Shown in pieces: positions 31,887-47,604 of a stretch of 60,178 bases of DNA. This DNA is from Romeriopsis navalis LEGE 11480 (GTDB lineage: Bacteria; Cyanobacteriota; Cyanobacteriia; Leptolyngbyales; Leptolyngbyaceae). How positions within the stretch are numbered: the stretch's first letter is position 1; the number at the start of each line of letters is the position of its first letter. The notes beneath the pieces are model-generated. The model was given only the letters and a program-made list of their open reading frames with translations. It was not told where the DNA came from and searched no databases. A program made the position numbers and the translations under genes. The DNA lies in the NCBI RefSeq assembly GCF_015207035.1, contig NZ_JADEXQ010000026.1, positions 1 through 60,178 of the forward strand, written 5' to 3'.

Positions 31887-32786
31887 ATGTCCACCAATCA
31901 AATGGTGTCGATGACGTCAGGGGAAAATACTCCGACGGAATTGACTAGTTCAACGATGCTATGCGATCAGTATCAGTCTGGAGCACGGGACTTTAGCGAT
32001 CGTGATTTCTGCGGGTTTAGCTTGCATTCAAGCTGCCTCAGTTATGCTAATTTTCGCCGTTCAAAGTTAAAGCAGGTCAACCTGCAAGATGCCGACTTGC
32101 GTGGCATTGATCTGAGTGAAACCGATCTCAGCCGGAGTAATCTTCAAAATACGGATCTGCGTGGTGCAGCCTTAGACAATGCAATGCTATTTATGGCGTC
32201 ATTAGACGGCGCAAATTTGCAAGGGGCTGATTTGAGTGGCGCATCCCTCGATATCACGACGTTAAATCAGGCAAATCTCCAAGGGGCTAATCTCTGTGGC
32301 ACCTATTTATGTGGGATGGATCTAAGTCAAGTTGATTTGCGCGGTGCTTATTTTGATAATAAGACTCAGTTCGATGCGGATTTTGATCCTGCTAGCGTGG
32401 GCATGCGTTCGGAAATCACCATCAGCATTGATGATATCGTCGCCCATTTTAATCGGTTGAGTAAATGTGCTAGTCGGTATTTGGGGCATACGATCGCTCT
32501 AAAGTACTGGGAAAAATCTCGCTACCAGAATCGACATATTGCCGCATTTCACTTCAATCCTACCGGTCAGTTTAGTTACTCAGGGCCATCCGATCGTGCC
32601 GCTAGCTTTTTGCAGTTGAAATGGGCACAACTATGGACAAATCGCTTTGTTGGAAATTGTGCTGTTGTTTTTCAAGATTTTCCCAACATTCTTGAACGTA
32701 ATCAGTTGTTATTGATTGGCCTAGAGTCGATAACGATTGTCAATACCGATGATTCTACCGGGAAATCTATGGCGATCTTTGGGTAA
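31887..32786 (+). CDS. Pentapeptide-repeat protein with uncharacterised C-terminal domain, paralogue 1
   Basis: A 299-residue protein. Residues 30-170 are pentapeptide repeats (A[DN]LxG pattern, e.g. DLRGIDLSETDLSRSNL), forming a right-handed beta-helix. Residues 175-285 are a separate mixed domain (MRSEITISIDDIVAHFNRL, LKYWEKSRYQNRHIAAF, QLKWAQLWTNRFVGNCAVV) shared with the paralogues at 40345 and 41851; I do not recognise it. It stands 71 bases upstream of the V4R gene. In the third paralogue the same two parts are continuous, so this protein is expected to work with the V4R protein next door. Confidence 0.85.
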   Translation: MSTNQMVSMTSGENTPTELTSSTMLCDQYQSGARDFSDRDFCGFSLHSSCLSYANFRRSKLKQVNLQDADLRGIDLSETDLSRSNLQNTDLRGAALDNAMLFMASLDGANLQGADLSGASLDITTLNQANLQGANLCGTYLCGMDLSQVDLRGAYFDNKTQFDADFDPASVGMRSEITISIDDIVAHFNRLSKCASRYLGHTIALKYWEKSRYQNRHIAAFHFNPTGQFSYSGPSDRAASFLQLKWAQLWTNRFVGNCAVVFQDFPNILERNQLLLIGLESITIVNTDDSTGKSMAIFG

Positions 32787-32793
32787 CTCTAAT

Positions 32794-32810
32794 AATGGGT
32801 CCCACCCATT
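32794..32810 (+). promoter_or_regulatory. Small hairpin between pentapeptide and V4R genes
   Basis: Arms AATGGGT and ACCCATT with a CCC loop, 8 bases after the stop, followed a little later by seven A. It may attenuate read-through or stabilise the message. Confidence 0.45.
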
Positions 32811-32857
32811 GAACACAAAAAAATCAAACTGTTCATGAATCATTCTTAGGAAGTCAC

Positions 32858-33580
32858 ATGCTGAATATGCAAGCTGATACGACCGCGCGGCTTGAATTAA
32901 CGTTACCAATGCCAGGGAGTTCATTACCCAAACAACAATATCCGCAAAAGCACCACCACTATCGCTTTGAAGACTTCTTCGCCTTTCAAGCGAAACAAGG
33001 TACGATCACCGACTGGAACGGCGCACGCAATATCTTCGCCGGGGAAGATTTCATCCTGGCGCTGATTCAAGGCCTCGAACAAGAAGTCGGTAATGCATCA
33101 AGTGTCCTGATGTACGACCTCGGCAAAGCCTGGGGCCAAAAAGACTTTGGCACCTTCAAGCAGTGGTTTGAAACCGAGTACGAATTTAGTATCAGTGAAG
33201 CCCAACTCCCCTTCGTCCTCGAAGCCTGGTGGTGGCCATTCACCACACAAGGTTGGGGCACTTGGGAAGTTGACCTCGAAGAACAAGCAAACGGATTCCT
33301 CTTCATCAGTATCTTTGATTCCGCTGTCGCACGTACCCTCGGTAATGTCGGCAAACCCGTTTGTCATCTCTACGCTGGACTATTCGCCGGCTTCTTCAGT
33401 CAACTCGTCAAGCAGGAACTCGGCTGTATCGAGATTCAGTGCTATGCCATGGGCGAAACCTATTGCAAGTTCCTCCTCGGTAAGAAAGACCGGATTGATG
33501 CGGCTACCTTCTGGCAAACCGAAGGCGCCACAGTTCGCGATATTGAGTCCCGATTGCAGCAGGGAGAGTATCTCAAGTAA
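32858..33580 (+). CDS. V4R-domain protein (Slr0144-like)
   Basis: A 240-residue protein. After a variable N-terminus it has HYRFEDFFAFQ (about 35-45), a conserved body, and a C-terminal V4R signature with cysteines: GCIEIQCYAMGETYCKFLLG. V4R domains bind small hydrophobic ligands or metal. As recalled, Slr0144 of Synechocystis, first gene of the slr0144-slr0152 photosystem II assembly operon, is of this kind. About 80 percent of residues match the second half of the protein at 41851. Its stop overlaps the next ATG (TAATG), so the two are coupled. Confidence 0.82.
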   Translation: MLNMQADTTARLELTLPMPGSSLPKQQYPQKHHHYRFEDFFAFQAKQGTITDWNGARNIFAGEDFILALIQGLEQEVGNASSVLMYDLGKAWGQKDFGTFKQWFETEYEFSISEAQLPFVLEAWWWPFTTQGWGTWEVDLEEQANGFLFISIFDSAVARTLGNVGKPVCHLYAGLFAGFFSQLVKQELGCIEIQCYAMGETYCKFLLGKKDRIDAATFWQTEGATVRDIESRLQQGEYLK

Positions 33581-33945
33581 TGCAACACGAAGTATTACAG
33601 CGGCAATCAGTGCGGGATTGTTTTGCGGGATTTGCTTGGCAAGGGGTGAATACCGCGGCCCCAATCATCCGTGAAATCACCCTGAAATCGTCCTGGAAAA
33701 CCGCTTCGGTCCAAGACTTCTTTGGTCAGTATAACTGGACGGGTTGTGCCCCCATTCAACCAGCGATTTCATTGGATACAGAAGATCTGACATCCGTCTC
33801 CGTCCGATCACCAGTCAAGCAATTTTTTGATTGTTTTATGTGGTCCGGACAGCCACATATTGCGCCACAGCCAATTCCTGGCAATGAACATCAAGTATCG
33901 CCCGATCGTGATTTCAAATTGTCCAACTTCGCCGATTTATTCTAA
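33580..33945 (+). CDS. Small protein with three aromatic repeats (Slr0145-like)
   Basis: A 121-residue protein built of three copies of a 13-residue motif: SVRDCFAGFAWQG (10-22), SVQDFFGQYNWTG (43-55) and PVKQFFDCFMWSG (78-90), with 33-35 residue spacing. The linkers are proline-rich and probably disordered. It ends in LSNFADLF. The motif looks like an amphipathic docking helix, so the protein could be a three-site scaffold for the pap complex. The role is inferred; only the placement after the V4R gene suggests equivalence to Slr0145. Confidence 0.75.
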   Translation: MQHEVLQRQSVRDCFAGFAWQGVNTAAPIIREITLKSSWKTASVQDFFGQYNWTGCAPIQPAISLDTEDLTSVSVRSPVKQFFDCFMWSGQPHIAPQPIPGNEHQVSPDRDFKLSNFADLF

Positions 33946-33950
33946 GCACC

Positions 33951-34460
33951 ATGATGAACTCTGAATTTCAAGCATTGATCAACGATGCTGAAGACCACTA
34001 TCTCCAATCCCAGGAACTGCGGCAGCTAAAGCAGCAACTCGAAAGTTTACCGGCGCGGTTGGCCGCTTACGAAGTCCTACGCGATCGGGAGTTAGAAGTA
34101 TTTCAGGCGGTCGCGGATGAACTCCAAGCGGAGTTTGCGAATCTCCCGACATCCCTGATTAATCGGGCATTGGAGAATGGTTTGGCAATTTTGCGATGTG
34201 GGGCCATGGCCATGCTCCAGAATAATCCTGAACACGTCCAGAAACGACTATTAGATTGGTTGCCAGAACAGGTCAAAGCCTATGACTTGGTTGCCGTCGA
34301 AGATCAGATGCTGCAATTGTTGCAAGCACAGTTGACGAAGCGGATTGAATCCGTACATGTTGCACAGATCCAGCCCTACATTGAGCAAGTCCGTCTGGCA
34401 TTGGTTAGTGAGACCCCGGCCAGCAAGCGCGCTCAAGCACCAGCAATGGCGCTCGGTTAG
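33951..34460 (+). CDS. Phycobiliprotein-fold protein without chromophore cysteine (Slr0146-like)
   Basis: A 169-residue all-helical protein. The pattern (LPARLAAYEVLRDRELEVFQAV, LRCGAMAMLQNNPEHVQKRLLDWLPEQVKAYD) resembles a phycobiliprotein subunit, but the position of the bilin-binding cysteine reads MLQNNPEHV, so no bilin is expected there. It starts 5 bases after the previous stop, hence the same operon. It could pair with the other phycobiliprotein-like protein at 35918. The comparison with Slr0146 rests on gene order. Confidence 0.65.
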   Translation: MMNSEFQALINDAEDHYLQSQELRQLKQQLESLPARLAAYEVLRDRELEVFQAVADELQAEFANLPTSLINRALENGLAILRCGAMAMLQNNPEHVQKRLLDWLPEQVKAYDLVAVEDQMLQLLQAQLTKRIESVHVAQIQPYIEQVRLALVSETPASKRAQAPAMALG

Positions 34461-34546
34461 TCCAAAATTTGCCAGGACTACGACCCAAGAATTGGTTCAG
34501 ACGACTGGGATTCACACACTACGTTAAATAGAGGAAGATTAAACCA

Positions 34547-35266
34547 ATGGCTTCTGTTGCGGATTTACTCAAGAATAAACCCCAATTACCGGGAAATTTC
34601 TTTGCCTACGATGCCTATGTTCAAGCCGACATTGAGCTCGGCATGATGAAAAATCGCCAAGGGGCACGCTTGCTGGCACTGCCGGAGAGTCTAGTAAATG
34701 TGTTGTACTCGGGATTAGAGTACGAGTTGGGCGGGGCAGCGGGCTTTGTCCTATTTCAATGCGGCTATCAGTGGGGTAAAACGTTCTACCGCCGGTTTGT
34801 GACCGAGGTCAGCGAATATTATGGTCAGCCAGTGGCTGAGATGCCCACATTAGAATTTGTCCAATGTTTGCAGCAATGCTGGCAAACCTGTGGGTGGGGA
34901 CGCATTGAACTGAGCTTTGATCACCACGATCAAGGCTTTCTCGTCGTCACAGTCCAGAACTCAGCCTTCACCCAAGGCCGAGAAAATAACAATCGCCCCC
35001 AATGTGAAATTGAGTCGGGGTTGTTGAGTGCGTTCTTTAGCCAACTCACTGGACAACCTTTGCATAGTGTCCAAACAGCTTGTGAGTCGCTCGGGGCGCC
35101 CGAGAACTGGTTTGTATTGGGCTTAGCCGATCGACTCAAACCCGCAGAAGCCTGGCTCGAAGAAGGACAGGACCATGCCACGATCATGCAACGCCTGTTG
35201 ACTCAAAGCCCGTCGGGTTCGGTGCCATCATCCACCGAGTCACCAACGACGACGACAGTCAGCTAA
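34547..35266 (+). CDS. Second V4R-domain protein (Slr0147-like)
   Basis: A 239-residue protein with the same overall layout as the V4R protein at 32858: FFAYDAYVQADIELGMMKNRQGARLLALPESLVNVLYSGLEYELG, then WQTCGWGRIELSFDHHDQGFLVVTVQNSAF, then SGLLSAFFSQLTGQPLHSVQTACESLG. The terminal cysteine pattern is changed: TACESLGAPENWFVLG has lost the last cysteine, so ligand or metal binding may differ. The C-terminus is Ser/Thr/Pro-rich. Probably dimerises or pairs with the first V4R protein. Confidence 0.8.
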   Translation: MASVADLLKNKPQLPGNFFAYDAYVQADIELGMMKNRQGARLLALPESLVNVLYSGLEYELGGAAGFVLFQCGYQWGKTFYRRFVTEVSEYYGQPVAEMPTLEFVQCLQQCWQTCGWGRIELSFDHHDQGFLVVTVQNSAFTQGRENNNRPQCEIESGLLSAFFSQLTGQPLHSVQTACESLGAPENWFVLGLADRLKPAEAWLEEGQDHATIMQRLLTQSPSGSVPSSTESPTTTTVS

Positions 35267-35354
35267 GGCGAGATTGATCCCCGAATGAGCCGTTAATTGC
35301 TCAAATAACGCCGACTCCCAATATTAACGATTCATACAGTGAGGCACAAACCCC

Positions 35355-35843
35355 GTGGCTAAGACAATTCAACTCGACCCGATCGGCACGCAAACCTCCG
35401 TCCAAACCAATGACAATATTTTGTCAGCGTTACTTGGTACGGATTTGCAAGTCTCCCATGAATGTGGCGGCCGGGGTCGTTGTGCAACTTGTCATGTGTT
35501 CATCAAGGAAGGGATGGAAAACCTTTCACCGATGAGCCGCCGCGAGCAACAAACGCTGGAAGTGATCACGACTTGCAATATGCAGTCGCGGTTAGCTTGC
35601 CAGACCCGTGTCTTGGATGAAGGGGTGGTGGTACAGTTACCCGCCGGTACGTACCTGAATGAAGTCGATGATCTCGATGCGTTGATTGGTCGTCGGGCCC
35701 AGGAGAAAATCTTGCATCCGTTGAACGGTACCGTTCTGGTTGAGCAAAATAAACTGATTACCCGCTCAGTGGTGAATGAACTCGCCGCCACCCGTTCCGA
35801 GGTAGGTAAGTACCTTGCCAACTCTGGATCAGCCACCGAGTAA
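35355..35843 (+). CDS. 2Fe-2S ferredoxin (Slr0148-like)
   Basis: A 162-residue protein starting with GTG at 35355. Cluster cysteines C37, C43, C46 and C82 follow C-x5-C-x2-C-x35-C, the adrenodoxin-like rather than plant-PetF spacing, within HECGGRGRCATCHVFI and RLACQTRV. Residues about 100-162 are an extra tail not needed for the cluster. In the pap operon a ferredoxin of this kind is assumed to give redox control or electron supply during photosystem II assembly. The electron partner is unknown. Confidence 0.87.
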   Translation: MAKTIQLDPIGTQTSVQTNDNILSALLGTDLQVSHECGGRGRCATCHVFIKEGMENLSPMSRREQQTLEVITTCNMQSRLACQTRVLDEGVVVQLPAGTYLNEVDDLDALIGRRAQEKILHPLNGTVLVEQNKLITRSVVNELAATRSEVGKYLANSGSATE

Positions 35844-35917
35844 TCCCGGGCACGAGTGTTGCAGAGCAGATTTTTGAGGCATGTATTGCCAGTATTTTTA
35901 GTAAAAGGAATTGAACT

Positions 35918-36385
35918 ATGTTGAGTCAGCTTGCCCGGTTAAGTGTTGAGGCGGATGGGCGCTATGCAACAGCGTCAGAGCTGCAGTTTTTGAAAGATTA
36001 TCTCGCCACGGCCGATCAGCGGATGAGTGCCTATGAGAAAATCCGCGACAATGAAGTGCAAATCATGATCGATATGGAAACACAATCGCGGTTAGCCGAT
36101 GCGAATGTCTTCCAGAAAGGTGAGCGAGATGTGACTCAAGTTTGCCGTCGCGATCGCAAGCAATTATTGCAATGCTCCGCCGCCGCCATGCTCATTGATG
36201 ATTTGGATCGGTTGCGTGATGGGTTGCTGCTATGGCAGAGCACGATCGTCCGGGCCTTGAAAGATGAGCAAGCATCCCAAGTCGTTTGTCGCGTCTTGCC
36301 GCACGTCATGCAGGCACATTTAACAGAAGCCGAAGCTGAACTGATGAAACCCGTGTTGCGCCTGAACCAAGCCCTATTGAATTAA
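35918..36385 (+). CDS. Allophycocyanin-like protein without chromophore cysteine (Slr0149-like)
   Basis: A 155-residue phycobiliprotein-fold protein. It has the N-terminal helices (LSQLARLSVEADGRYATASELQFLKDYL), AYEKIRDNEVQ, and RRDRKQLLQCSAAAMLIDDLDRLRDGLLLW. In bilin-carrying subunits the last stretch reads about C-L-R-D-x-x-Y; here the cysteine position is not conserved, so a bilin is unlikely. AAGGA precedes the ATG. Such proteins could imitate antenna subunits to hold phycobilisome or photosystem II intermediates; this is inference. Confidence 0.78.
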   Translation: MLSQLARLSVEADGRYATASELQFLKDYLATADQRMSAYEKIRDNEVQIMIDMETQSRLADANVFQKGERDVTQVCRRDRKQLLQCSAAAMLIDDLDRLRDGLLLWQSTIVRALKDEQASQVVCRVLPHVMQAHLTEAEAELMKPVLRLNQALLN

Positions 36386-36464
36386 GTCTTTCGTCAAGTT
36401 GTCCGAAAGCCGCCATCTTGAAAACCCATTCAATCATCGTTCTCACATTCAATCATCATTCACA

Positions 36465-37319
36465 ATGGAACCTGAAATGCAACCATTAGACGTACAACCA
36501 GCCGCACAATTGTCCAATCCATCGGCCGCACCATCCGGTTCCTGGATGGATAGCCTCGAAATCGTTTCTGTGGTGGTTTCTCTCGGTAGCTCCGTCGCCT
36601 TGGCCGCAATGCAACAAGCCGCTTTAGCGACAATTCCCTTGTCCTTTACAGCCGCCCTCAATTTAGCCAATCGTAAGCGGTTGATGAATGCCATGGCACA
36701 GTCGCAACAGGCAGCAACCGCCCAACTCGTATCCCAGGCAACCCAGCATCAGCAACGCTTGGATGATTTGACTCAATCATTCGAGACACGGTCATCGTCC
36801 GTCACCGCACAGTTTACGGAGATGCAAACGCTCAGCACCGAATTTAAGCAACAACTGCAGGCGCTTGAGGCCAAAGATACGGACATTGAAACCGTCCTTG
36901 AAAAGCTACGTGAGATCGATCGTTGTACCCAAGCAATCCGCACAAATCCCAAAGCGGCTGACTTCTTCTTCCAACGGGGTCAAGTGCGCCAAAGTCTGTC
37001 CCGCATGGAAGACAACCGGATCGCGATCGAAGACTATACCCAGGCGATCAAACTGGAGCCGACTTTCGCGAAAGCCTATTTTAACCGTGGCTTCCTCCGC
37101 GCCGAATTGGGTGAAAAGCGTCAAGCCGGTGAAGATTTGCGGATGGCGGCTAAGTGCTATTTTGACCAAGGTCAAATGGATAGTTATGCCGAAGCCAAAC
37201 AGTTGAGTGAGCAGGTTTACGCCAACACTGAAGCGCCAACGGATGAGTCGACCAGTCTGCCAGGCAATGAGGCAGACCCAGTGGCACCCAAATTGTTGGT
37301 GTCAGATTTATTTAGTTAA
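36465..37319 (+). CDS. TPR membrane protein (Slr0151-like)
   Basis: About 284 residues from the ATG at 36465; the longer frame from 36399 adds a TTG start without support. It has a hydrophobic segment (VSVVVSLGSSVALAAMQQAAL), then a helical coiled-coil region (QATQHQQRLDDLTQSFETR), then two to three TPR units (FFFQRGQVRQSL..., AYFNRGFLRAELGEKRQAG...). Slr0151 of Synechocystis is a TPR protein needed for efficient photosystem II repair and thylakoid organisation. The C-terminus (LLVSDLFS) resembles the tail of the 33580 protein. It ends the operon before a strong terminator. Confidence 0.82.
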   Translation: MEPEMQPLDVQPAAQLSNPSAAPSGSWMDSLEIVSVVVSLGSSVALAAMQQAALATIPLSFTAALNLANRKRLMNAMAQSQQAATAQLVSQATQHQQRLDDLTQSFETRSSSVTAQFTEMQTLSTEFKQQLQALEAKDTDIETVLEKLREIDRCTQAIRTNPKAADFFFQRGQVRQSLSRMEDNRIAIEDYTQAIKLEPTFAKAYFNRGFLRAELGEKRQAGEDLRMAAKCYFDQGQMDSYAEAKQLSEQVYANTEAPTDESTSLPGNEADPVAPKLLVSDLFS

Positions 37320-37392
37320 ATTTGGGCAATGGTTCATGCCGCCATAAAAGCGCATGCAGGCCACAAGCCGTCAATATTTGCTTAATCGGATT

Positions 37393-37426
37393 ACGGGTAG
37401 AACCGCCTTGGCTCTACCCGTTTTTT
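37393..37426 (+). terminator. Terminator of the pap-like operon
   Basis: Arms ACGGGTAGA (37393-37401) and TCTACCCGT (37413-37421), short loop, followed by a T-run to 37426. It lies 73 bases after the TPR gene. Confidence 0.92.
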
Positions 37427-37479
37427 GTGGCCAATCGCGGCAATACAGACATAGAACAGCGTGACGCCATACGGTTGAG

Positions 37480-38211
37480 TTAGACCAGAAGTCCGATCAG
37501 CCGTAGCAACCCGGGCAACATCACCGCCGTAATTAAGGCGGAAAGCGCCATCGCCAGCCCGGCAAACGCGCCCATTTCCGAACTGATCTGAAATGCGCGA
37601 GCGGTGCCAATCCCATGGGCCGTGAGTCCCATAGCAATACCGCGAATACTGTCATCGTTAATCCGCAGCAGACTTAATAATTGTGTGCCACCGAGGGCCC
37701 CAATAATGCCCGTCGTGACGACTAATGCCGCGGTAAGTGAGGGCAAGCCGCCAATCTGTTCGGAAATTCCCATCGCGACCGGTGCCGTCACTGATTTCGG
37801 GGCCAGGGATAATTGCGTCAGGTAACTAGCCCCAAAGAGTTGGGCGATCGCCACTGAAGTTAAGGCCCCAGTTGTGACACCCGCAATCAGGGCAATCAGG
37901 ACGGGCAACCAGATCCGCCGCAACTTCGCAAACTGTTGATGTAATGGCACAGCGAGGGCGACCGTTGCCGGTCCCAGGAGAAAATGAATAAACTTGCCGC
38001 CTTCAAAATAAGCCGCATAGGACGTATCCGTCACGATGAGACAGAGAACCAAACAGCCCACCGCTGTCACCACAGGATTGAGTGCGGGGTGATAATTCGT
38101 ATAAACGTAGAGTCGATGGGCCAAACTGTAGGCAACTAAAGTCATCGTCAGCCCCAATAGGGGAGATGTGGCAAGATAAACCCAAATTTTCGCGAGATCC
38201 GGATCAAGCAT
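37480..38211 (-). CDS. lrgB: LrgB family membrane protein
   Basis: A 243-residue protein with several membrane segments and the LrgB core (GPATVALAVPLHQQFAKLRR, LAPKSVTAPVAMGISEQIGGLPSLTAALVVTTGIIGA, RGIAMGLTAHGIGTARAFQ). It overlaps lrgA by 8 bases. LrgAB homologues in plants are fused in PLGG1, the plastid glycolate/glycerate carrier, and cyanobacterial LrgAB may move glycolate or pyruvate rather than act as an antiholin. It converges with the pap-like operon. Confidence 0.9.
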   Translation of the reverse strand: MLDPDLAKIWVYLATSPLLGLTMTLVAYSLAHRLYVYTNYHPALNPVVTAVGCLVLCLIVTDTSYAAYFEGGKFIHFLLGPATVALAVPLHQQFAKLRRIWLPVLIALIAGVTTGALTSVAIAQLFGASYLTQLSLAPKSVTAPVAMGISEQIGGLPSLTAALVVTTGIIGALGGTQLLSLLRINDDSIRGIAMGLTAHGIGTARAFQISSEMGAFAGLAMALSALITAVMLPGLLRLIGLLV

Positions 38212-38572
38212 GATGGTGACCCCACTTATTCTGGAATCGCTGGATGCCCACCATAACGATCGCTGTCGTCGCCATTGTGATCATGGTACTCAACAGCAGG
38301 GTAATCGTGATCGGCAGCCATTCATGGGTGAGGCGATTAAAGTGCACAATAATCCCCACACCAGCAGGAACAAACAGTAGCGACAAATGACTCAAGAGTG
38401 TGGTTGAAGCCATCTCGATCGCGGCCATCGATGGTCGGCGGAGGCTCAGGGTAAGAAAGAGCAGAAACATGCCAATGACTGGCCCTGGTAAGGCGATCGG
38501 GAGGAGTTGTGCAGCAACTTCGCCAATCAGCTCATAAATCAGCAGAATCGTGATGCCATTGATGAAAATCAT
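38204..38572 (-). CDS. lrgA: LrgA/CidA family membrane protein
   Basis: The family start MIFINGITILLIYELIGEV is at the ATG at 38572, giving about 122 residues; an ATG at 38626 would add 18 polar residues and has no visible ribosome site. Four membrane segments, with ALPGPVIGMFLLFLTL typical of CidA/LrgA. It pairs with LrgB (overlapping stop/start), likely forming one transporter complex for small organic acids. Confidence 0.88.
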   Translation of the reverse strand: MIFINGITILLIYELIGEVAAQLLPIALPGPVIGMFLLFLTLSLRRPSMAAIEMASTTLLSHLSLLFVPAGVGIIVHFNRLTHEWLPITITLLLSTMITMATTAIVMVGIQRFQNKWGHHHA

Positions 38573-38709
38573 ACGATACTTATCGGCCTCGTTATAAATC
38601 GTTGAGCTTCGTCGATCGTTTGTCATGAATTGAATCGATCGGCTGAGTGCAGTATAACGAGCGCCGCCGGTCTGGTGGGGGATGATTTTTCGGTTAGTTG
38701 ATCATATAA

Positions 38710-38739
38710 AACAGCACGCTAACCGGTTAGCGTGCTGTT
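38710..38739 (-). terminator. 30-bp perfect palindrome, terminator of the acyltransferase gene
   Basis: A perfect 30-base palindrome centred on CCGG. Read on the minus strand it lies 27 bases after the acyltransferase stop and is followed by TTTTAT. On the plus strand no T-run follows. Confidence 0.85.
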
Positions 38740-38766
38740 GACTAATTGAATAGATGTACTATCTAG

Positions 38767-39873
38767 TTATTGCGCGGTGGCCCGGTTTGATTGGCGCCCA
38801 AGATACCAGCGTAAACCTTTGTTATAGCTACTCTGAAGAGCATAACTCAGCGCAAAAATCACCGGAATGCCCAGCCCCAGAATAAAACCTGACTGGATAT
38901 ATGATTTGGTGCCCCAGATATTTGCCATCATCGACCAGACTGGCCGATGGAGCAGAAAAATGCCAAAGGAAGCGAAGGATAGTTGTTTGAAACAAGTGGC
39001 TAAGTAGCTCGGGACTGCGATGGACCGACAAACTTTGAGGATCGTGAAGTGGAGCGGCAGAATTGCCATAATCGCCAGGGCAGTCTGCAAACTATCCAGG
39101 GCAAAGTTACCACTTTGGAAAATGCCCCCGAATTGGGTTGCACTATAGAGCAAGGCACTGCTACTAATTGCCGAGATGATCAGGGCGATCGGCGTCTTCA
39201 ACCGTTCAAAGTCGGATTGATATTCGGCGTAGAGCATTCCGATCGAGAAATACACTAAGTACCCCCCAAACCCCTGAATCATCAACGATTTCCCCGCCAA
39301 CACCGGTACAAAATTCAACCCACTAATCACACCGAGCATCAGCCCCAAGACAAGACCAAACGTTTTGGCTTGACTAACCCAACGGCGCAAGATGAGAAAG
39401 AGACCGTAGTAGCAAACTAAATTACTAACAAACCAAATGGTGTTGTAGTTGTCCTGAATCATATTCGGCACGATCGATTGCAAGCATAGGGCATGAATCA
39501 CAAAGTTGCCGACCGACGGTAATGTCTTACGCAGATAGGGATAGGAAGTGAAGGAAAATAAAACGATCGTCAGCAAGTACATCGGATAAATCCGGAGCAA
39601 ACGATTGCGAATAAAATCCCACGCTGGCTCTGTCCGTTTTGACTTGGTCAGTTTGAAGCCGGACATGAGGAAGAATCCCCCCACGGCAAACTGTTGCAAG
39701 ATTTTGTTGAGACCAAGACTATAGGGATTAAAGAAGCGGTGGGTGATTTCCCAAATATAGTCTTTGGTGTAATTAACGTGGTGTAGGGATAAGACGGTGA
39801 TTAGACAAGCGACCGTGAGCCAAATCATCGGGTCGATCGTCACTGGCGATCGGTCAGAAACATTACGCGTCAT
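38767..39873 (-). CDS. Acyltransferase family 3 (OafA-like) membrane protein
   Basis: A 368-residue multi-spanning protein (about ten membrane segments) with family 3 features: LSLHHVNYTKD near the N-terminus, FAVGGFFLMSGFKLT, RNRLLRIYPMYLL, and FGIFLLHRPVWS near the end. These enzymes O-acylate exported sugars or lipids. It is flanked by its own terminator and a long promoter region. Substrate unknown. Confidence 0.88.
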   Translation of the reverse strand: MTRNVSDRSPVTIDPMIWLTVACLITVLSLHHVNYTKDYIWEITHRFFNPYSLGLNKILQQFAVGGFFLMSGFKLTKSKRTEPAWDFIRNRLLRIYPMYLLTIVLFSFTSYPYLRKTLPSVGNFVIHALCLQSIVPNMIQDNYNTIWFVSNLVCYYGLFLILRRWVSQAKTFGLVLGLMLGVISGLNFVPVLAGKSLMIQGFGGYLVYFSIGMLYAEYQSDFERLKTPIALIISAISSSALLYSATQFGGIFQSGNFALDSLQTALAIMAILPLHFTILKVCRSIAVPSYLATCFKQLSFASFGIFLLHRPVWSMMANIWGTKSYIQSGFILGLGIPVIFALSYALQSSYNKGLRWYLGRQSNRATAQ

Positions 39874-40344
39874 GCTGGTTGGGAAAACTAAGAACAGTGG
39901 TGATTCTGGGTTTAGTATGGCCAGAGTTGATCGCAGTTACGCTCAGGGAAATCACGTCATTCTCGGTCGTTAGTTTAGTCAACCGTGACTGAGGCTGAAA
40001 CCGTTTGGGGCAATTTGAGCAATTTGAGCGGCGCACACCAAGCAGGCTTACTGATGAGATTGGAATGACATCGGGTATTTCGGTCGTGGTTCTACGGACA
40101 GCAGAATTTTCGCTCACAACAGATTTATGTAATTGCCCCCTACGAGAGATAGCGCACAATCGGGCAAATTTGGAGATGAGTAAGATTAAACGAATATATA
40201 AAAGTTAAGGCTTGAGGCGAAGGTGAAGCAGTTACGCCGCAGATACTTCACCCTACCCGATTGGAATAAGGCTTGGAAGTCCGAGCCTTACAGGAGCTAC
40301 GGCATCGTCCCGATATTTGATAATTAGCTTTTTGTTGGGGAATT
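39874..40344. other. Intergenic, divergent promoters
   Basis: About 470 bases between divergent genes, no gene seen. A short doubled AATTTGAGC lies at about 40013-40030. Presumably contains both promoters. Confidence 0.45.
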
Positions 40345-41187
40345 ATGACTATCCACCATCATATGTTTGCTGTGAGAGAGGCACCGCAGCCAGCAGAATC
40401 TGACGATGAATTACAGTTACAGGATTACTATGCCGCGGGAGAACGTGACTTTTCCGATCGTGATTTATGTGGGATCGAAGTCAATACTGATTGTCTGAGT
40501 TATGCGCGGTTTCGACGATCGAAGCTGAAGCAAGTTAACTTACAGGATATGGACTTACGTGGTGTTGATCTGAGTGAGGCGAATCTCAGCCGCAGTAATT
40601 TGAATCATGCAGATCTGCGTGGTGCGGCTTTGAATAATGGCATATTTTTCCTCACCTCATTTAATGGTGCAAATTTACAAGGTGCCGATTTAAGCGGTGC
40701 TTCCCTGGATATCACCGACTTAGAGCAGGCTAATCTCCAAGGCGCAAACCTATGTGGAGCATATCTGCGAGGACTGGATTTGAGTCAAGTCAATTTGCAG
40801 GGCGCTTATTTTGATCCAAAAACACAGTTTGATCGAACTTTCGATCCCTTAGCGGCAGGCATGCAGCAAGACGTCCAAACGACGATGGATGATTTAGTCT
40901 TGCATTTCAATCAGTTGAGTCAATGTGCAACACGCTACCTCGGCGACATGATCGTTGCGAAATATTGGGCACAGACGCAGGTAAATAATCGGTACTTAGC
41001 CGCATTAGAAATAACCGCAGCAAATCAATTTAGCTACGCAGGGCCAGCCCAAGACCCAGCTAATTTACATCAGCTGAAATGGGCACAACTGTGGATCAAT
41101 CGCTTTCTGGGTAGTTGCTCACTGATTGTCCAAGACTTACCCAATATCGCTGAGCAGAAAAATTTACTAGTGGTTTCGGCTGGTTAA
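40345..41187 (+). CDS. Pentapeptide-repeat protein with uncharacterised C-terminal domain, paralogue 2
   Basis: A 280-residue protein with the same two parts as the 31887 gene: pentapeptide beta-helix (about 25-160; LSYARFRRSKLKQVNLQDMDLRGVDL) and the unknown C-terminal domain (MDDLVLHFNQLSQCATRYLG, HQLKWAQLWINRFLGSCSLIVQDLPNI). It has no V4R gene behind it, ends shortly after the domain, and is followed by a 660-base gap. It may compete with or replace paralogue 1 in the same complex. Confidence 0.85.
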   Translation: MTIHHHMFAVREAPQPAESDDELQLQDYYAAGERDFSDRDLCGIEVNTDCLSYARFRRSKLKQVNLQDMDLRGVDLSEANLSRSNLNHADLRGAALNNGIFFLTSFNGANLQGADLSGASLDITDLEQANLQGANLCGAYLRGLDLSQVNLQGAYFDPKTQFDRTFDPLAAGMQQDVQTTMDDLVLHFNQLSQCATRYLGDMIVAKYWAQTQVNNRYLAALEITAANQFSYAGPAQDPANLHQLKWAQLWINRFLGSCSLIVQDLPNIAEQKNLLVVSAG

Positions 41188-41850
41188 ATACTTTGCTTGC
41201 TCCCACGTTGAAACTAGATCAAACTCAAGACTTAAGCAATCATTTGGTGGTGATGGGGTCATCGGTTGGGAATACTTTTACAGTAATCAGCCATCGCGCA
41301 TCCGATTGAGCTTACGACCGCTTCAGAATCTACCCTTGGCAATTCACATAATTAATCTGAGATCAGAGACGATCGAGGACACGAATCACCTTTGATACAC
41401 CATTCATTAGCATGCGGAAAATCACGTCTCCAGCTTGATCTCAAATCGATTGCTACAGACTACACAGGGATATCTTAGTTAATGCAGATTTTTGGTACCA
41501 TCATGACATGAGAGCCGATGAACAGGAAGGGGCACAGGACGTGCATCATCCGTAGAGTTACTAGAATTTGGCATTCCCAAAAAGATATAGACAATCCGCT
41601 TTTTAAGCAATAAGGGCACAATTTCAGTCTTGCTTTCCCATAAATTCACCTTTTCATGATTGTTGAGTTTTTGTGTCTTTCACGGAATGGTTAAGAATAA
41701 ATTAAGGCATATTAAAAACATGTCAGTCAAGTATTTACAAACACATTCTTGCGCTACTTGGTCGCAGAAGACAATTATGCACCTTGCAAAAAACGATTTG
41801 CGTTGCACTCCAATTCCAAGTTCTTGAGATTCCTCGTAGGAGATACGATA
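41188..41850. other. Gene-free, promoter of the fusion gene
   Basis: 660 bases with no supported gene. The plus frame is open from 41749, but the AGGAG ribosome site at about 41838-41842 and the ATG at 41851 mark the real start. A long leader suggests separate regulation of the fusion gene. Confidence 0.5.
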
Positions 41851-43551
41851 ATGCCCGATTCTGCTGTTGCCTTGCCAGTAACCAATCAAGCCATTGAATT
41901 ATTATCATCTCGATACCAGTCAGGGGAACGGGACTTTGCTGACTACGATTGTGCCGAACTCAATCTACGTGCAACTTCTTTCAGTTATGCCAGTTTTCGC
42001 CGATCTAAGTTAAGACTGCTAGATTGGCGCGATTCAAATCTGCGCGGCATTGATCTCAGTGATACCAATCTCAGCCGCAGCCACTTAGAAAATGCCGATT
42101 TACGAGGGGCAGCGCTCGATAATTCCATGTTATTCATGGCATCACTTGACGGCGTGAACTTACAGGGAGCTGATTTGAGCGATGCCTCGCTTGACCTGAC
42201 AACTGTCGATCATGCTGATCTGCGAGGAGCAAATTTACGGGGAGCTTACCTATGTGGGATTGACTTAAGTCAGGCCAATCTCGAAAATGCTTACTTTGAC
42301 AATCGCACCCAATTTGACCAACAATTCGATCCAATTAGTGCGGGCATGCGTACGGATATCACCGTGACGGTAGATGATCTGGTTGCCGGACTGAATCAGA
42401 TTACCCATTGTACGAGCCAATACATCGAGCAGCCCCTGATCTTAGAACATTGGGAAAAAGCCCGGTTTGCAAATCGACATTTAGCCGGATTTTCGTTTGA
42501 TGCAGCGGGGCAAGTTGTTTATACGGGGAACGCCACAGAATCAGCGAGTTTTCTCCAACTCAAATGGTTGCAGCTTTGGATTAATAAATTCATGGGTAAC
42601 TGCGCATTAACTTATTCCGAGTTGCCTTACATTATTCAGCAAGACCATTTATTGGTATTAACCTGGGAAGCTCAAGGTCACAATCAAGAACACATTGACA
42701 GTGTTGCTAGTCCGAATGCCAATACTGCTATTTTTGGTGAATCTTTGGCTCCGGCCAATGCCACCAACCCGCTAGAGACTGAGGCATTACTGACGGTGAA
42801 TCGTCAAACAGGCGAAAGTTCAATCCCAACGGCGCAATCCGCATCGATCGCCACAGTCGCAGCAACCTTAACGCGATCGCCAGAAGTCGTCGTCCCCCCG
42901 CACCAATATCCGAAAAAGAAGCCACATTATCGATTTGACGACTTCTTCGCCTTTCAATCAGCTCAAGGTACGGTGAAAGATTGGCATGGGGCACGGAATA
43001 TTTTTGCCGGTGAAGACTTTATCCTGGCGCTGATTCAAGGGTTTGAACAAGAAGTGGGGCAGGCGTCTTCGCTCTTGATGTATGACTTAGGTAAAGCTTG
43101 GGGCGCACGCGATTTTCAGGTATTCAAGTCCTGGTTTGAAGCAGAATTCGCGATGGACATTGGTCAATGTCCATTGCCCGTAGTCCTCGAAGCCTGGTGG
43201 TGGCCGTTCACAACGCAAGGTTGGGGCACTTGGGAGGTAGATCTCAAGGAACAGGCCAATGGCTTCCTATTTATTAAAATCTTCGACTCGGCCGTGGCCC
43301 GGACCCTCGGCAACGTCGGGAAGCCAGTATGTCATCTCTACGCCGGGCTGTTTGCCGGATTTTTCAGTCAGCTGGTGAAGCAAGACCTCGGCTGCATTGA
43401 GCTTCAGTGCTACGCCATGGGTGACACATACTGTAAATTCTTAGTCGGCAAAAAGGAACGGGTCGATGCGGCAACGTTCTGGCAAACCGAAGGTGCAACA
43501 GCACGGGACATTGAAATGCGATTACAGCAGGAAGAAGCGCTAACGGCGTAA
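41851..43551 (+). CDS. Pentapeptide-repeat / V4R fusion protein, paralogue 3
   Basis: A 566-residue protein joining, in one chain, the pentapeptide helix (about 20-160), the unknown domain (VTVDDLVAGLNQITHC, LQLKWLQLWINKFMGNCAL), a variable linker of about 80 residues (begins NTAIFGESLAPANATN, contains many A, T and S), and a V4R domain starting at HYRFDDFFAFQ. The V4R half closely matches the separate protein at 32858 (e.g. EAWWWPFTTQGWGTWEVDL identical) and keeps the cysteines GCIELQCYAMGDTYCKF. Paralogue 1 ends at AIFG, exactly where this linker begins. The start is set by an AGGAG site. Confidence 0.9.
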   Translation: MPDSAVALPVTNQAIELLSSRYQSGERDFADYDCAELNLRATSFSYASFRRSKLRLLDWRDSNLRGIDLSDTNLSRSHLENADLRGAALDNSMLFMASLDGVNLQGADLSDASLDLTTVDHADLRGANLRGAYLCGIDLSQANLENAYFDNRTQFDQQFDPISAGMRTDITVTVDDLVAGLNQITHCTSQYIEQPLILEHWEKARFANRHLAGFSFDAAGQVVYTGNATESASFLQLKWLQLWINKFMGNCALTYSELPYIIQQDHLLVLTWEAQGHNQEHIDSVASPNANTAIFGESLAPANATNPLETEALLTVNRQTGESSIPTAQSASIATVAATLTRSPEVVVPPHQYPKKKPHYRFDDFFAFQSAQGTVKDWHGARNIFAGEDFILALIQGFEQEVGQASSLLMYDLGKAWGARDFQVFKSWFEAEFAMDIGQCPLPVVLEAWWWPFTTQGWGTWEVDLKEQANGFLFIKIFDSAVARTLGNVGKPVCHLYAGLFAGFFSQLVKQDLGCIELQCYAMGDTYCKFLVGKKERVDAATFWQTEGATARDIEMRLQQEEALTA

Positions 43552-43896
43552 TTAGCATGGCACGATCGGTAGCAACTCGATTTACGATCAAGTCGCCGCC
43601 GATCGTGTTGCGTAAGATCGCAACTCCACCATATTTCATGCTTCCACCATATTTCATGGCCGCCACAGCAGCGCTGAAGCGCAATCAACATCGATTTGAC
43701 AGATTATCAGATGCGACCTTGTGAGTATCAGATTGATTTATCTCAGGATGCGGTATTCCTAACGGCATAGGGCACAATGGAAGCGGCTAAATTTGCCGGC
43801 AGCCAGAATTTGGTTGACGGATTGGATCGATTGAGGGGGGTTCCCCCTGACATCGATCGCAATTAAGCCGATTGATTGGTGCGAGTCCCTGGCGTG
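43552..43896. other. Intergenic with repeats before the kinase gene
   Basis: Holds a hairpin with arms CACGATCGG (43561-43569) and CCGATCGTG (43599-43607), a 16-base direct repeat (43625-43640 and 43643-43658, unit ending TATTTCATG), and a GGGGG/CCCCC hairpin near 43835-43850. No gene. Confidence 0.6.
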
Positions 43897-45504
43897 ATGG
43901 CAATGTCGAAACTGATCCATACAAAATACCGAATTTTAGGACAAGTTGGCCAAGGTCAGTTTGCCCAGGTTTTTTGTGGTGTTGACCGTGGAACTGGGAC
44001 GATCGTCGCTCTGAAAAAGCTCAACCTTCAGCGATCGCCAGCCAATCAGTTTCTCCATGAATTAAACCTACTAACCCGCTTGCGTCATCCAAATATTGTG
44101 CAGTTTTATGCACTGGACTATGATGCGACGGGCCGTTATCTAATTACGGATTATTGTGCGGGTGGAACCTTACGAGATTTAATGGAATCGGCATACCCAC
44201 TGCGATTAACCCAATGTCTTGATGTGATTATCGATGTTCTACAGGGCTTGGCCCATGCCCATGCGGGCGGTGTAATTCATTGTGACTTGAAACCGGAAAA
44301 TATTTTATTAGCACCAGTGGCCACGGGGTGGTCGGCGCGAATTGCGGATTTTGGGGTGTCGCGATTGATGGAAGATATGGTAGCCCGTGGGGCCACAGCA
44401 ATGCCGCAGGGCTCCCCGGCTTATATGGCACCGGAATCCTATTACCAGCAGTATTCCTATGCGTCGGATTTGTATGCAGTAGGAATTCTCCTATTTGAAC
44501 TGGTCGTGGGGCAACGGCCGTTTTCCGGCAGGCCCGGGGAGCTCATGGGGGCACATTTAAATCAACCGCTAGTGATGCCCGATTCGGTGCCCTTTGCATT
44601 GCGCTCTATTATCACGACAGCGTTGCAGAAGTTACCCCAGCGACGATTTGATTCCGCATCAGCGATGCTCAAGTCAGTCCGACTGGCAGCAGAGATTTTA
44701 CAAGCAACGCAGCCGGAGACATTATCGGGAGTTATTGAGTCACACCCCATCGCAGGCCACCCGCCAAAGCTCGATTTTCAGGCATGTTCGCAGAGGCCCG
44801 TGGATCAAGTGGCAACCGAACATAGTGGATTAAGCACGATCGACCCAGAAGGAAAATGGCGCGCCGTGACGCAGCCGATCGCAACGGCAGATCGTACTGT
44901 TGATGCAGCCAATACGGCCAGTCATACATTTCAGATTTTGCGCTTACCGGGACATGCGCCAGTGCATATGGCGCAGGACTGGCCGCAGCCCGAGCAGTTG
45001 ATCGCCTTAGACCAACGGCATGGATTAGCGATTCTGCCGGACTTGGAGAACCGATCGCCCAATTATCGGACGTGGCGGTTGTTCAATCGACGGGGTGGCT
45101 TTGTTGATTATTGTCGGTTACCGGCGACTGTCGGACCGCTAGTTTGCCATCAGCATGAGCCATATGGGGTGTTGACAATTTCTATAGGCGATCCGCAGGT
45201 GGCGCTATTAATTGATCTCAAACCCCTAAAAGTCAGACGCCTAACCTTCGATTTTGCCCCGGACTGCTTAGTGGCGATGGACTGTGGCTATGCATTAGCA
45301 AATCGATCGGGTCAACTGCTGATCCTGGATGAGGCAGGGGAACCCCTGAGCCAGTGTCAACTATTTGATGACTCAGAGCGTGAATTGATCAGCATCACCG
45401 CATTAGACCCAAACCAATTAGCGATTGTGACGGATGTGGGTACGAAGCATTTTCGATCGGTGATTGATGTAGCGCAATTACTCCCGACTGAGGTAGCTGA
45501 CTGA
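43897..45504 (+). CDS. Serine/threonine protein kinase, SpkG-like (Slr0152-like)
   Basis: About 535 residues. The kinase domain covers roughly 5-270: glycine loop GQVGQGQFAQVF, catalytic lysine in VALKKL, HCDLKPEN (catalytic loop, with C in place of R, so probably RD-independent), DFGVSR, and APESY. The C-terminal half (270-535) lacks membrane segments and looks like a beta-rich repeat domain (LRLPGHAPVHMA, GLAILPDLENRSPNY). In Synechocystis the kinase SpkG closes the pap operon. Here it follows the pentapeptide-V4R fusion, at the second locus. Start taken at the ATG near 43897. Confidence 0.87.
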   Translation: MAMSKLIHTKYRILGQVGQGQFAQVFCGVDRGTGTIVALKKLNLQRSPANQFLHELNLLTRLRHPNIVQFYALDYDATGRYLITDYCAGGTLRDLMESAYPLRLTQCLDVIIDVLQGLAHAHAGGVIHCDLKPENILLAPVATGWSARIADFGVSRLMEDMVARGATAMPQGSPAYMAPESYYQQYSYASDLYAVGILLFELVVGQRPFSGRPGELMGAHLNQPLVMPDSVPFALRSIITTALQKLPQRRFDSASAMLKSVRLAAEILQATQPETLSGVIESHPIAGHPPKLDFQACSQRPVDQVATEHSGLSTIDPEGKWRAVTQPIATADRTVDAANTASHTFQILRLPGHAPVHMAQDWPQPEQLIALDQRHGLAILPDLENRSPNYRTWRLFNRRGGFVDYCRLPATVGPLVCHQHEPYGVLTISIGDPQVALLIDLKPLKVRRLTFDFAPDCLVAMDCGYALANRSGQLLILDEAGEPLSQCQLFDDSERELISITALDPNQLAIVTDVGTKHFRSVIDVAQLLPTEVAD

Positions 45505-45726
45505 TACCGACTCAACCAATGTTGTGTCAAAGATATATTGCGCTGTGCGGATCGTGGGTGAGCGATCGCGAAAAGCTAAATAAATAGACTAACGTGTCGT
45601 GCTCAAGATTTTTCTATCGCGACGGCATATGTTGCGCTGCTCAATCGTTACGAATTTAGAGGAAGCACCCGCTTGTGAATGGCAAGGAACTGCTTCCTTC
45701 AACCCATGATGAGGCAAGGAGTTCCC

Positions 45727-47604
45727 ATGAAAAACAGCATTTTAGCAAGTTCAATTGCGCTTGGCGTTATGACATCACTGGCGGCAGTCAGTCCGACGAT
45801 GGCAGCGAATATTGACGATCCCAATAGCGTTGCTTGGTCATCGATTCGGGGATATAGCAGTGCTGATTTTGGCAAATATTTTCAGCAGAAAAAAGCGCAG
45901 GGTTATCGAGTGATTGACCTTGAGGTTGATCGAATTGGCGGGAAGACCCGCTACTCCGCCGTCTGGCAATACAACAGTGATAAACGCGGTTGGGCCAGCT
46001 ATCGCAATATGACAAATGCGCAATTTAGTCAGCGTTGGAAAGATTTTCGCAAACAAGGCTATCGACTGATTGATCAAGAGTCTTACAAAATTGGTGGTAA
46101 GCGATTGTACGCCGGGGTGTGGGTACAGAACAAAGAAAATACCCCCTGGGTTTCCTATCGCAATGTCGATAGTGCTGCGTTTTCCAAGCGGTTTAAGACC
46201 TACCAGAAGCAGGGTTACCGCATGGTGGACGTAGAAGCCTATCCCAGTGGGAGTAAGACGCTGTACTCGGCAATTTGGGTCAAGAATCAGCCAAATTTGG
46301 GTTGGGCAGAATATCGGAATATGTCAGCTTCTAGCTATGCCAAAAGGTTCAAAGATTTTCAAAAGCAAGGTTATCGTGTCGCGGATTTAGAATCCTATCG
46401 TCAGGGTGGTCGCCAAAAGTATGCCGCGATCTGGGTGAAGAATACCAACGGTCGGGGCTGGGCGGCCCGGCGGGATATGAGTGCGACGTGGTTTGGGAAT
46501 TATTGGAAGACTTACCGGGATCAGGGCTATCGCTTAGTTGACTTTGAAGCCTACCCGACAATCGGTGGAACACGCTATGCGGGCGTCTGGCGACAGAATA
46601 ATGATCGCCGCAATTGGTCAGGCCGAACCGGGGTAGACCAAGCGATCGCCGCATATAAAAAACGCAATGGCTTGCCAGGCATCAGCGTCGTGATTCAAAA
46701 GCACGGTAAGACGCTCTATGCACGTGGGTTTGGCTATGCCGATACGATCAAAAAGAAGGTGGCACATGCGGATACAATTTATCGCTTAGCCTCGGTGAGT
46801 AAGCCGATCACAGGTTTGTTAGCAATGCGTCAGGTCGAACAACGGCGGCTGAATCTTGATGCCCCAACCCGGCGTTATCTGCCCAGTATGCCGGGGTTCC
46901 ATACCCACAAAATTCGCCAGTTGATGAATCATCAGTCGGGAATTTGTCATTATGCGGAGTGTGGTAGTGGGTGGCGTGGTCAGACTTTCAACACTGCCTT
47001 CGCCGCCATCCAGAAGTATGAGAAGCAGCCCTTGCTATTTACGCCGGGGACAAAGGTTGATTACAGCACCCATGCTTTTAGCGTATTAGCAGCGGTGTTG
47101 GAGAAGCGATCGGGGCGTTCCTATAGTGCTTTGTTTACCCGCGATATCACTAACCGTTTAGGGTTACCAACCCTCAGACCCGAGAATCGCAAGGTGAAAA
47201 ATGCGAATCGATCGTTGGTTTATAGTGGAGCGGTGCCGGTGCCAGCCGATAATTTGAGCTGGAAGTTTGCCGGGGGCGGGATTGAATCGTCGGCCGTTGA
47301 TTTAACCAAGCTTGGGACGAAGTTATTGCAAGGTCGGGTAATCTCTAATGCCAGCCGCACACAAATGTGGACAAACTCGACGTTGAATAACGGCAACCGC
47401 TCGGGATATGGATTGGTATGGAGCTTGGGTAGCCATCGTGGCAAGGCAATTGCTTCGCATGGCGGCGCCCAATTGGGCGCCCGATCACACTGGCGAATTT
47501 ATCGCAATGATGGCATCGTAATTTCGATTTTGTCGAATCGCAATAATGGCAATCCCAGTGGGTTAGCCGATCAGATTGGCACGATCGTCCTGAATGCGCG
47601 ATAG
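45727..47604 (+). CDS. Secreted tandem-repeat plus beta-lactamase-fold hydrolase (polyglycine-hydrolase-like)
   Basis: About 625 residues. A signal peptide (MKNSILASSIALGVMTSLAAVSPTMAA) is followed by five or six tandem repeats of about 50 residues, each with GYR[VL][IV]D.E and Y[AS]A.WV.N, ending in W. Then comes a serine beta-lactamase-fold domain: SVSK with S356-K359, a YST motif, and HGGAQLG near the C-terminus. Repeats of this kind joined to a class C-type domain are known from fungal polyglycine hydrolases. AAGGAG lies 5 bases before the ATG. Substrate unknown; probably a peptidase acting outside the cell. Confidence 0.85.
   Translation: MKNSILASSIALGVMTSLAAVSPTMAANIDDPNSVAWSSIRGYSSADFGKYFQQKKAQGYRVIDLEVDRIGGKTRYSAVWQYNSDKRGWASYRNMTNAQFSQRWKDFRKQGYRLIDQESYKIGGKRLYAGVWVQNKENTPWVSYRNVDSAAFSKRFKTYQKQGYRMVDVEAYPSGSKTLYSAIWVKNQPNLGWAEYRNMSASSYAKRFKDFQKQGYRVADLESYRQGGRQKYAAIWVKNTNGRGWAARRDMSATWFGNYWKTYRDQGYRLVDFEAYPTIGGTRYAGVWRQNNDRRNWSGRTGVDQAIAAYKKRNGLPGISVVIQKHGKTLYARGFGYADTIKKKVAHADTIYRLASVSKPITGLLAMRQVEQRRLNLDAPTRRYLPSMPGFHTHKIRQLMNHQSGICHYAECGSGWRGQTFNTAFAAIQKYEKQPLLFTPGTKVDYSTHAFSVLAAVLEKRSGRSYSALFTRDITNRLGLPTLRPENRKVKNANRSLVYSGAVPVPADNLSWKFAGGGIESSAVDLTKLGTKLLQGRVISNASRTQMWTNSTLNNGNRSGYGLVWSLGSHRGKAIASHGGAQLGARSHWRIYRNDGIVISILSNRNNGNPSGLADQIGTIVLNAR

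Follow-up and report, generated by a model that had tools for sequence, protein, structure and literature searches.

Which part do three related pentapeptide proteins play beside a gene cluster for photosystem II assembly, and through which domain might they be linked to it? This question is raised by a 60,178-nucleotide stretch of the genome of Romeriopsis navalis LEGE 11480 (contig NZ_JADEXQ010000026.1; hereafter the window, that is, the whole stretch analysed), in which three genes on the forward strand, here called p1 (31887–32786, 299 aa), p2 (40345–41187, 280 aa) and p3 (41851–43551, 566 aa), lie beside homologues of the Synechocystis pap genes (slr0144–slr0152). The literature on Synechocystis ties this set to photosystem II assembly, after which the operon is named, and to photosystem II repair (PMC4853703, PMC9145668); it reports that Slr0151 binds CP43 and D1 (PMC4853703) and that Slr0144–Slr0149 are located at the thylakoid and interact, as seen in a pull-down via Slr0149 fused to green fluorescent protein (PMC9880817). 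Here we describe a C-terminal domain (CTD) common to p1–p3 that recurs behind several N-termini, is co-inherited with V4R proteins and is frequently encoded next to pap genes. The CTD of p1–p3 is probably a missing accessory part of the photosystem-assembly machinery.

The C-terminal domain of p1, p2 and p3

The initial annotation had described p1–p3 as paralogues sharing a pentapeptide part and a C-terminal domain matching no family that it recognised, and both observations hold. Pentapeptide repeats are found in all three open reading frames over the Pfam cut-off (68.9–88.0 bits against 20.2 bits for PF00805; E 8.6e-25 in p1, 2.7e-25 in p2 and 2.6e-19 in p3, whose length is counted from the ATG at 41851, the open frame itself beginning at a TTG at 41749), and their C-terminal parts align with a common LKW.QLW.N.F.G.C stretch. 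This likeness is far beyond chance: in a search of the same genome with p1, only p2 and p3 (E 5e-102 or better) proved closely related to it, the next match (E 7.8e-17) being confined to pentapeptide residues, and a profile search located a fourth, distant CTD copy on contig C128. By profile match, the CTD comprises about 105 aa and is placed at the C-terminal end of p1 (32403–32714) and p2 (40861–41181) and internally in p3 (42346–42672). Its conserved positions include Y-L-G and W/F.

No Pfam or NCBIfam match over cut-off covers the C-terminal part of p1–p3 or of the other CTD proteins scanned, and the profile search for a known family with another role, as proposed in the initial annotation, thus yielded none; weak sub-cut-off rows over the CTD of single proteins include DMAP1_like (E 0.0083, L021) and C2c1_helical (E 0.19, L108). 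A search of PDB sequences with the CTD profile gave four chance matches (E 0.37 or worse), and no relative came out of a scan of named genome contigs with the CTDs of p1–p3. As modelled by AlphaFold2, the p1 CTD has a short hairpin between two pairs of helices (predicted local distance difference test [pLDDT] 87.4, predicted template modelling score [pTM] 0.80). With this model, Foldseek returned no PDB match at E 0.001, a result which is in itself no proof of a new fold. The closest structural neighbour, a weak one, is the H-NOX fold of PDB 6bdd (VIA Z 4.4, root-mean-square deviation 2.9 over 64 residues), a likeness that is unconvincing at a Foldseek E of 4.2 and a probability of 0.03. Kinship of the CTD with another pap protein was also considered and rejected, hhalign giving at most 5.1% against seven families (0.4% and 0.3% against slr0144-type V4R proteins, hereafter V4RA, and 0.2% against slr0147-type V4R proteins, hereafter V4RB). 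In the literature on V4R with pentapeptide proteins, on pentapeptide repeats in photosystem II assembly and on the slr0144 set, sampled largely outside subscription journals, we found no description of the CTD. Overall, the CTD represents an undescribed domain that is mostly helical in its predicted structure.

The initial annotation had taken the pentapeptide part plus the C-terminal domain as the shared unit and the set as a possible undescribed assembly or repair module. The domain is described in none of the libraries searched; the conserved unit, however, is the CTD alone, a mobile domain that follows several N-termini, the pentapeptide part among them. The first of these is the pentapeptide repeat and the second a domain whose opening resembles MKREVVQDFLNLPGIAGVAL; the others are a helical stretch (seen as SPMTRYYIRRLL and in a variant form), a receiver-like domain and, in a Prochloron protein, a further, acidic N-terminus. 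Profile comparison identifies the CTDs attached to the four main N-termini as a single domain (hhalign 99.3–100% between the sets). The repeat solenoid and N-terminal helix of p1–p3 are as in pentapeptide proteins of the HetL and Alr5209 type (PF00805), from which p1–p3 differ by the added CTD; the NCBIfam models of both types hit repeat residues in p1 and p3, at scores under their cut-offs.

The receiver-like N-terminus matches Response_reg in five of five proteins (E 7e-4 to 6e-3), in each case under the Pfam cut-off, and all five carry Gly, as seen by eye, at what we take to be the place of the phosphoacceptor Asp, which makes a classical phosphorelay unlikely for this front end. For the second N-terminal type, below called roadblock-like, a true roadblock identity had been suspected by eye and found no support: one protein matches Robl_LC7 under the cut-off (E 0.017), a comparison with three true roadblock proteins gives 0.8% in hhalign, and PDB sequences searched with this type contain no roadblock match, returning viral stem chains at E 0.05 or worse that we regard as chance. 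In a tree of CTDs whose N-terminal labels were assigned by simple text patterns, the 12 label changes counted are an overestimate, because five rows are unlabelled and at least two of these (L088, L118) are clearly of a known type; the starred branches nonetheless force at least three changes for the helical type.

Co-inheritance, adjacency and decay with pap genes

The occurrence of the CTD and of V4R (PF02830, cut-off 31 bits) was determined in 386 genomes drawn evenly across the phylum (143 genera), with up to 12 first-look candidates per genome scored for the CTD and up to 15 for V4R, so that absences of either are soft; the V4R search was also made in 40 CTD genomes and in G185. The CTD was matched in 39 of the 386 genomes using one window sequence and in 41, from 30 genera, using a profile of 32 rows (A1). 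V4R is present in 40 of these 41 CTD genomes versus 59 of the 386 overall (Fisher p 1e-38, uncorrected for kinship). The sole CTD genome without V4R, G375, contains a partial CTD match (E 8.7e-5) that was kept in the counts and is probably due to chance. The patchy V4R pattern fits the published account that the pap cluster, a descendant of bilin-reductase clusters with bilin-binding globins, is missing from many cyanobacteria (PMC10151467).

In addition to being co-inherited, CTD and pap genes are frequently adjacent. In 20 of the 41 CTD genomes, no more than 5 kb separates a CTD gene from a V4R gene, and in five more (G011, G027, G170, G215 and G286) a CTD gene is within 1 kb of a pap ferredoxin or globin gene. 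Among the 64 CTD genes fetched, 28 are within 5 kb of a V4R gene, 19 of them within 1 kb, and 36 are beyond 5 kb, against a chance expectation of about 0.3% per gene for the 5 kb distance (one cluster in 4.3 Mb); two additional matches outside the 64, one each in G179 and G247, are more than 75 kb from V4R by their coordinates. In a survey of named loci, 299 matched V4RA and the best 80 were kept, of which 22 contain a CTD gene, including loci of Geminocystis, Xenococcus PCC 7305, Chroococcus FPU101, Acaryochloris, Petrachloros, Aliterella and Prochloron; among the 58 loci that extend for 2.5 kb or more on each side, 16 do so. The place of the CTD gene varies, being directly upstream, divergent, after the kinase gene, or between the TPR and kinase genes, the last slot holding two CTD copies in Cyanosarcina as it holds p2 and p3 in the window. 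Moreover, the pentapeptide, roadblock-like, receiver-like and helical forms are all found beside pap genes. The genome survey that the initial annotation had proposed thus found the CTD together with pap genes elsewhere, the absence of such co-occurrence having been named there as speaking against the proposal; its first observation is correct and more general than first thought.

Within the family of the window's genome, 38 of 42 genomes have a CTD match, 40 have V4R and 38 have both. Neither was matched in G185 and G413, and V4R is found without the CTD in two incomplete genomes, G393 (69% complete) and G423 (85%). Two of the 38 CTD-positive genomes, G414 and G405, have a broken CTD gene. 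In G414, the CTD gene, the ferredoxin gene, the V4RA gene, the slr0145-like gene and the kinase gene are all in pieces (L216, L217); the two stretches examined contain no second V4R gene or globin gene, V4RA is near a contig end, and it is the single V4R match genome-wide.

The p3 fusion and a proposed adaptor model

The arrangement which had led the initial annotation to propose that the pentapeptide-CTD and V4R parts bind each other is as described there. The stop codon of p1 (32784–32786) follows its MAIFG end and is separated by 71 bp (32787–32857) from the V4RA gene (32858–33580, 240 aa; Pfam V4R E 1.9e-23), and p3 continues past the corresponding TAIFG through a linker into a V4RA-like part (42901–43548; Pfam V4R E 4.2e-23, 81.6 bits, over cut-off). 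This part, which the initial annotation estimated to be about 80 percent similar to the 32858 protein, is 85% similar and 76% identical to it over 236 aligned positions. The binding step itself fares less well, since the fusion was seen in a single genome, appears to come from a copied pair and is folded at a pTM of 0.40. The fused form is present in one of the 42 family genomes among the matches listed, and other V4R frames near 500 aa in the 386-genome sample are found only in G004 and G018 (493 and 496 aa), which belong to another class.

In the CTD tree, in which few columns leave many forks open, p1 and p3 are sisters (100/91), p2 joins them (100/99), and the three are placed among pentapeptide-type CTDs of other cyanobacteria, for instance Geminocystis. 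In the V4RA tree, for which support is by SH-aLRT (Shimodaira–Hasegawa-like approximate likelihood ratio test) only, the 32858 protein and the V4R part of p3 are likewise sisters (99). As both parts are sisters, p3 would most simply have arisen by copying of the p1–V4RA pair and loss of the gap; the DNA of the p3 linker has no clear similarity to the p1–V4RA gap. Between the two V4R copies, the proportion of synonymous differences (pS) is 0.73, with a synonymous divergence (dS) of about 2.6 and a nonsynonymous divergence (dN) of 0.14. Silent sites are thus near saturation while protein change is low (dN/dS about 0.05), indicating that the fusion partner is old and has been kept. The window V4RAs join two Thermosynechococcaceae records (support 87), in a clade that also includes Acaryochloris (89), and the V4RA copy on contig C9 of the same genome falls outside this part of the tree, beside rows of the family and of Leptolyngbyaceae. 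The genome thus holds two pap sets, the one in the window having probably been acquired. The second set comprises V4RB, globin, slr0145-like, V4RA and globin genes on contig C9 (L127) and, on contig C128 (L108), a roadblock-like-CTD gene followed by a ferredoxin gene.

Taken together, we find it somewhat likely that CTD proteins serve the Pap complex as accessory adaptor subunits and that the CTD is an interaction domain tied to the Pap system. As the CTD is the only constant part of these proteins, we infer that it meets the core: it would dock on the V4R/ferredoxin/globin core, and the exchangeable N-terminus would connect this core with a site, client or signal, photosystem II being the putative client. 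The extra pap cluster in the window carries three pentapeptide-CTD copies, one of them covalently joined to its putative V4R partner. A broader proposal, which we put forward tentatively, is that the CTD defines a widespread and overlooked adaptor family, in which one conserved socket would plug varied front ends (a pentapeptide rod, a dead receiver, a roadblock-like or a helical domain) into a tetrapyrrole-handling V4R/ferredoxin/globin machine during photosystem biogenesis. The adaptor model draws its strength from co-inheritance, from joint loss and from an adjacency that takes several forms, the step from fusion to binding being its weak element.

Several observations weigh against this model. 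No conserved CTD residue indicates a partner, and if p3 comes from a copied adjacent pair, the fusion is not independent of the adjacency. The p3 fold (pTM 0.40) contains no CTD–V4R docking; as its CTD is badly modelled (block-mean pLDDT 31–51 over most of it, from 26 mixed alignment rows), it neither supports nor excludes docking. In G405 (L218), the CTD, ferredoxin and kinase genes are damaged and both V4R genes intact, which suggests either that decay started from the CTD side or that the dependence is not strict. The CTD gene is near neither V4R nor a pap ferredoxin or globin in 16 of the 41 CTD genomes, including the seven f6 genomes and the three multi-copy f18 g28 genomes, so that some CTD proteins may serve other duties. 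Conversely, V4R occurs without a CTD match in 19 genomes of the 386-genome sample, notably those of f11, and the Pap core can thus exist without the CTD. Among the named V4RA loci, some of them short, 58 of 80 have no CTD at E 1e-4, including those of Microcoleus, Planktothrix and Crocosphaera; a loose search of these 58 gave one weak, uncounted piece in Laspinema (L208, E 1.3e-4). Finally, the co-occurrence of the CTD and V4R is in part shared descent.

Alternatively, CTD proteins could regulate the pap genes or the SpkG-like kinase, through expression or phosphorylation, without being subunits, with the N-terminus as sensor and the CTD as output. The receiver-like N-termini and the frequent position of CTD genes as first gene, divergent, or beside the kinase gene would suit such a role, which we nevertheless regard as unlikely, given the Gly at the Asp place in all five receiver-like domains, the lack of any DNA-binding or catalytic Pfam domain over cut-off in the CTD proteins scanned, and the fusion of p3 to a V4R protein itself, which regulation does not predict.

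We assign still less weight to two other explanations. The CTD might be a general self-association or capping domain of unrelated cyanobacterial proteins, for which the pap system was one early host, as would agree with its several N-termini and with the 36 of 64 fetched genes that have no V4R within 5 kb; this is hard to reconcile with V4R in 40 of 41 CTD genomes and with all four front-end forms occurring beside pap genes, and we consider it improbable. To a similar degree, we doubt that p3 is a mere read-through product of the copied pair and that the pentapeptide-CTD genes ride with a horizontally acquired cluster without shared function. The sister relationships of both p3 parts, the fusion being seen in one of the 42 family genomes and the position of the window V4RA apart from the C9 copy are all compatible with this; the near-saturated silent sites at a dN/dS of about 0.05, however, point to an old fusion partner that was kept, and co-inheritance across families and the joint decay in G414 would be left unexplained.

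The set is reported to affect the assembly and repair of photosystem II, yet little is known of the role of its V4R proteins Slr0144 and Slr0147, themselves duplication products (PMC13326532, PMC9145668). A CTD family that is co-inherited with V4R, sometimes lost jointly and once fused to it provides a direct handle on these proteins, and its swapped front ends make testable what the Pap complex senses or where it is placed.

Genes of the window cluster and related loci

The initial annotation had placed p1–p3 next to a photosystem II assembly operon, which is borne out by homology and gene order. Two V4R types enclose slr0145- and slr0146-like genes and are followed by ferredoxin and globin genes and, downstream, by TPR and kinase genes, an order shared with the Synechocystis pap genes; the slr names used here are assigned from gene order and Pfam matches. 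All on the forward strand, the V4RA gene is followed by a slr0145-like gene (33580–33945) with VxxFF..WxG-type repeats, which has no Pfam match and is named from its position and from homologues in other pap sets, a slr0146-like phycobilisome-type globin gene (33951–34460; PF00502, E 1.4e-7), the V4RB gene (34547–35266; V4R, E 6.5e-13), a slr0148-like 2Fe-2S ferredoxin gene (35355–35843; Fer2, E 2e-10), a slr0149-like phycobilisome-type globin (BBAG) gene (35918–36385; PF00502, E 4.5e-12) and a slr0151-like TPR gene (36399–37319; TPR_11, E 2e-10). The slr0152 (SpkG)-like Ser/Thr kinase gene (43876–45504; Pkinase, E 1.4e-49) starts 6.6 kb past the TPR gene, after p3. In contrast to Synechocystis, the window has three added pentapeptide-CTD genes, one fused to V4RA, and carries LrgA/LrgB and acyltransferase genes between the TPR and kinase genes. 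At the place of slr0150, which we take to encode a second ferredoxin, no such gene was seen, the slr0149-like and TPR genes being 13 bp apart.

The slr0145-like proteins consist of one to four copies of a VxxFF(3-6)WxG-type motif, at least one copy being present in 90 of 98 counted (window included), and several have a DLF-type tail at their end. The motif is found in none of 723 other pap and CTD proteins, is rare among other open reading frames, and looks, from its sequence, like a repeated docking peptide. Both window globins appear by eye to retain a Cys at the bilin-binding CXRD place and to lack the RD (CGAM, CSAA). Long acidic repeat tails of several hundred residues are present in a V4RB protein (L138:11604-14084) and in a slr0146-like globin (L168:11048-12550). 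At another locus (L210, G000:C33, 887–2541), three genes encode a protein with no Pfam match that is V4R-like to the eye, a roadblock protein and a small Ras-like GTPase, with a similar arrangement in G060. Downstream of the kinase gene, the window encodes a beta-lactamase-family protein (45679–47604) preceded by five polyglycine-hydrolase-like repeats (BTRD1).

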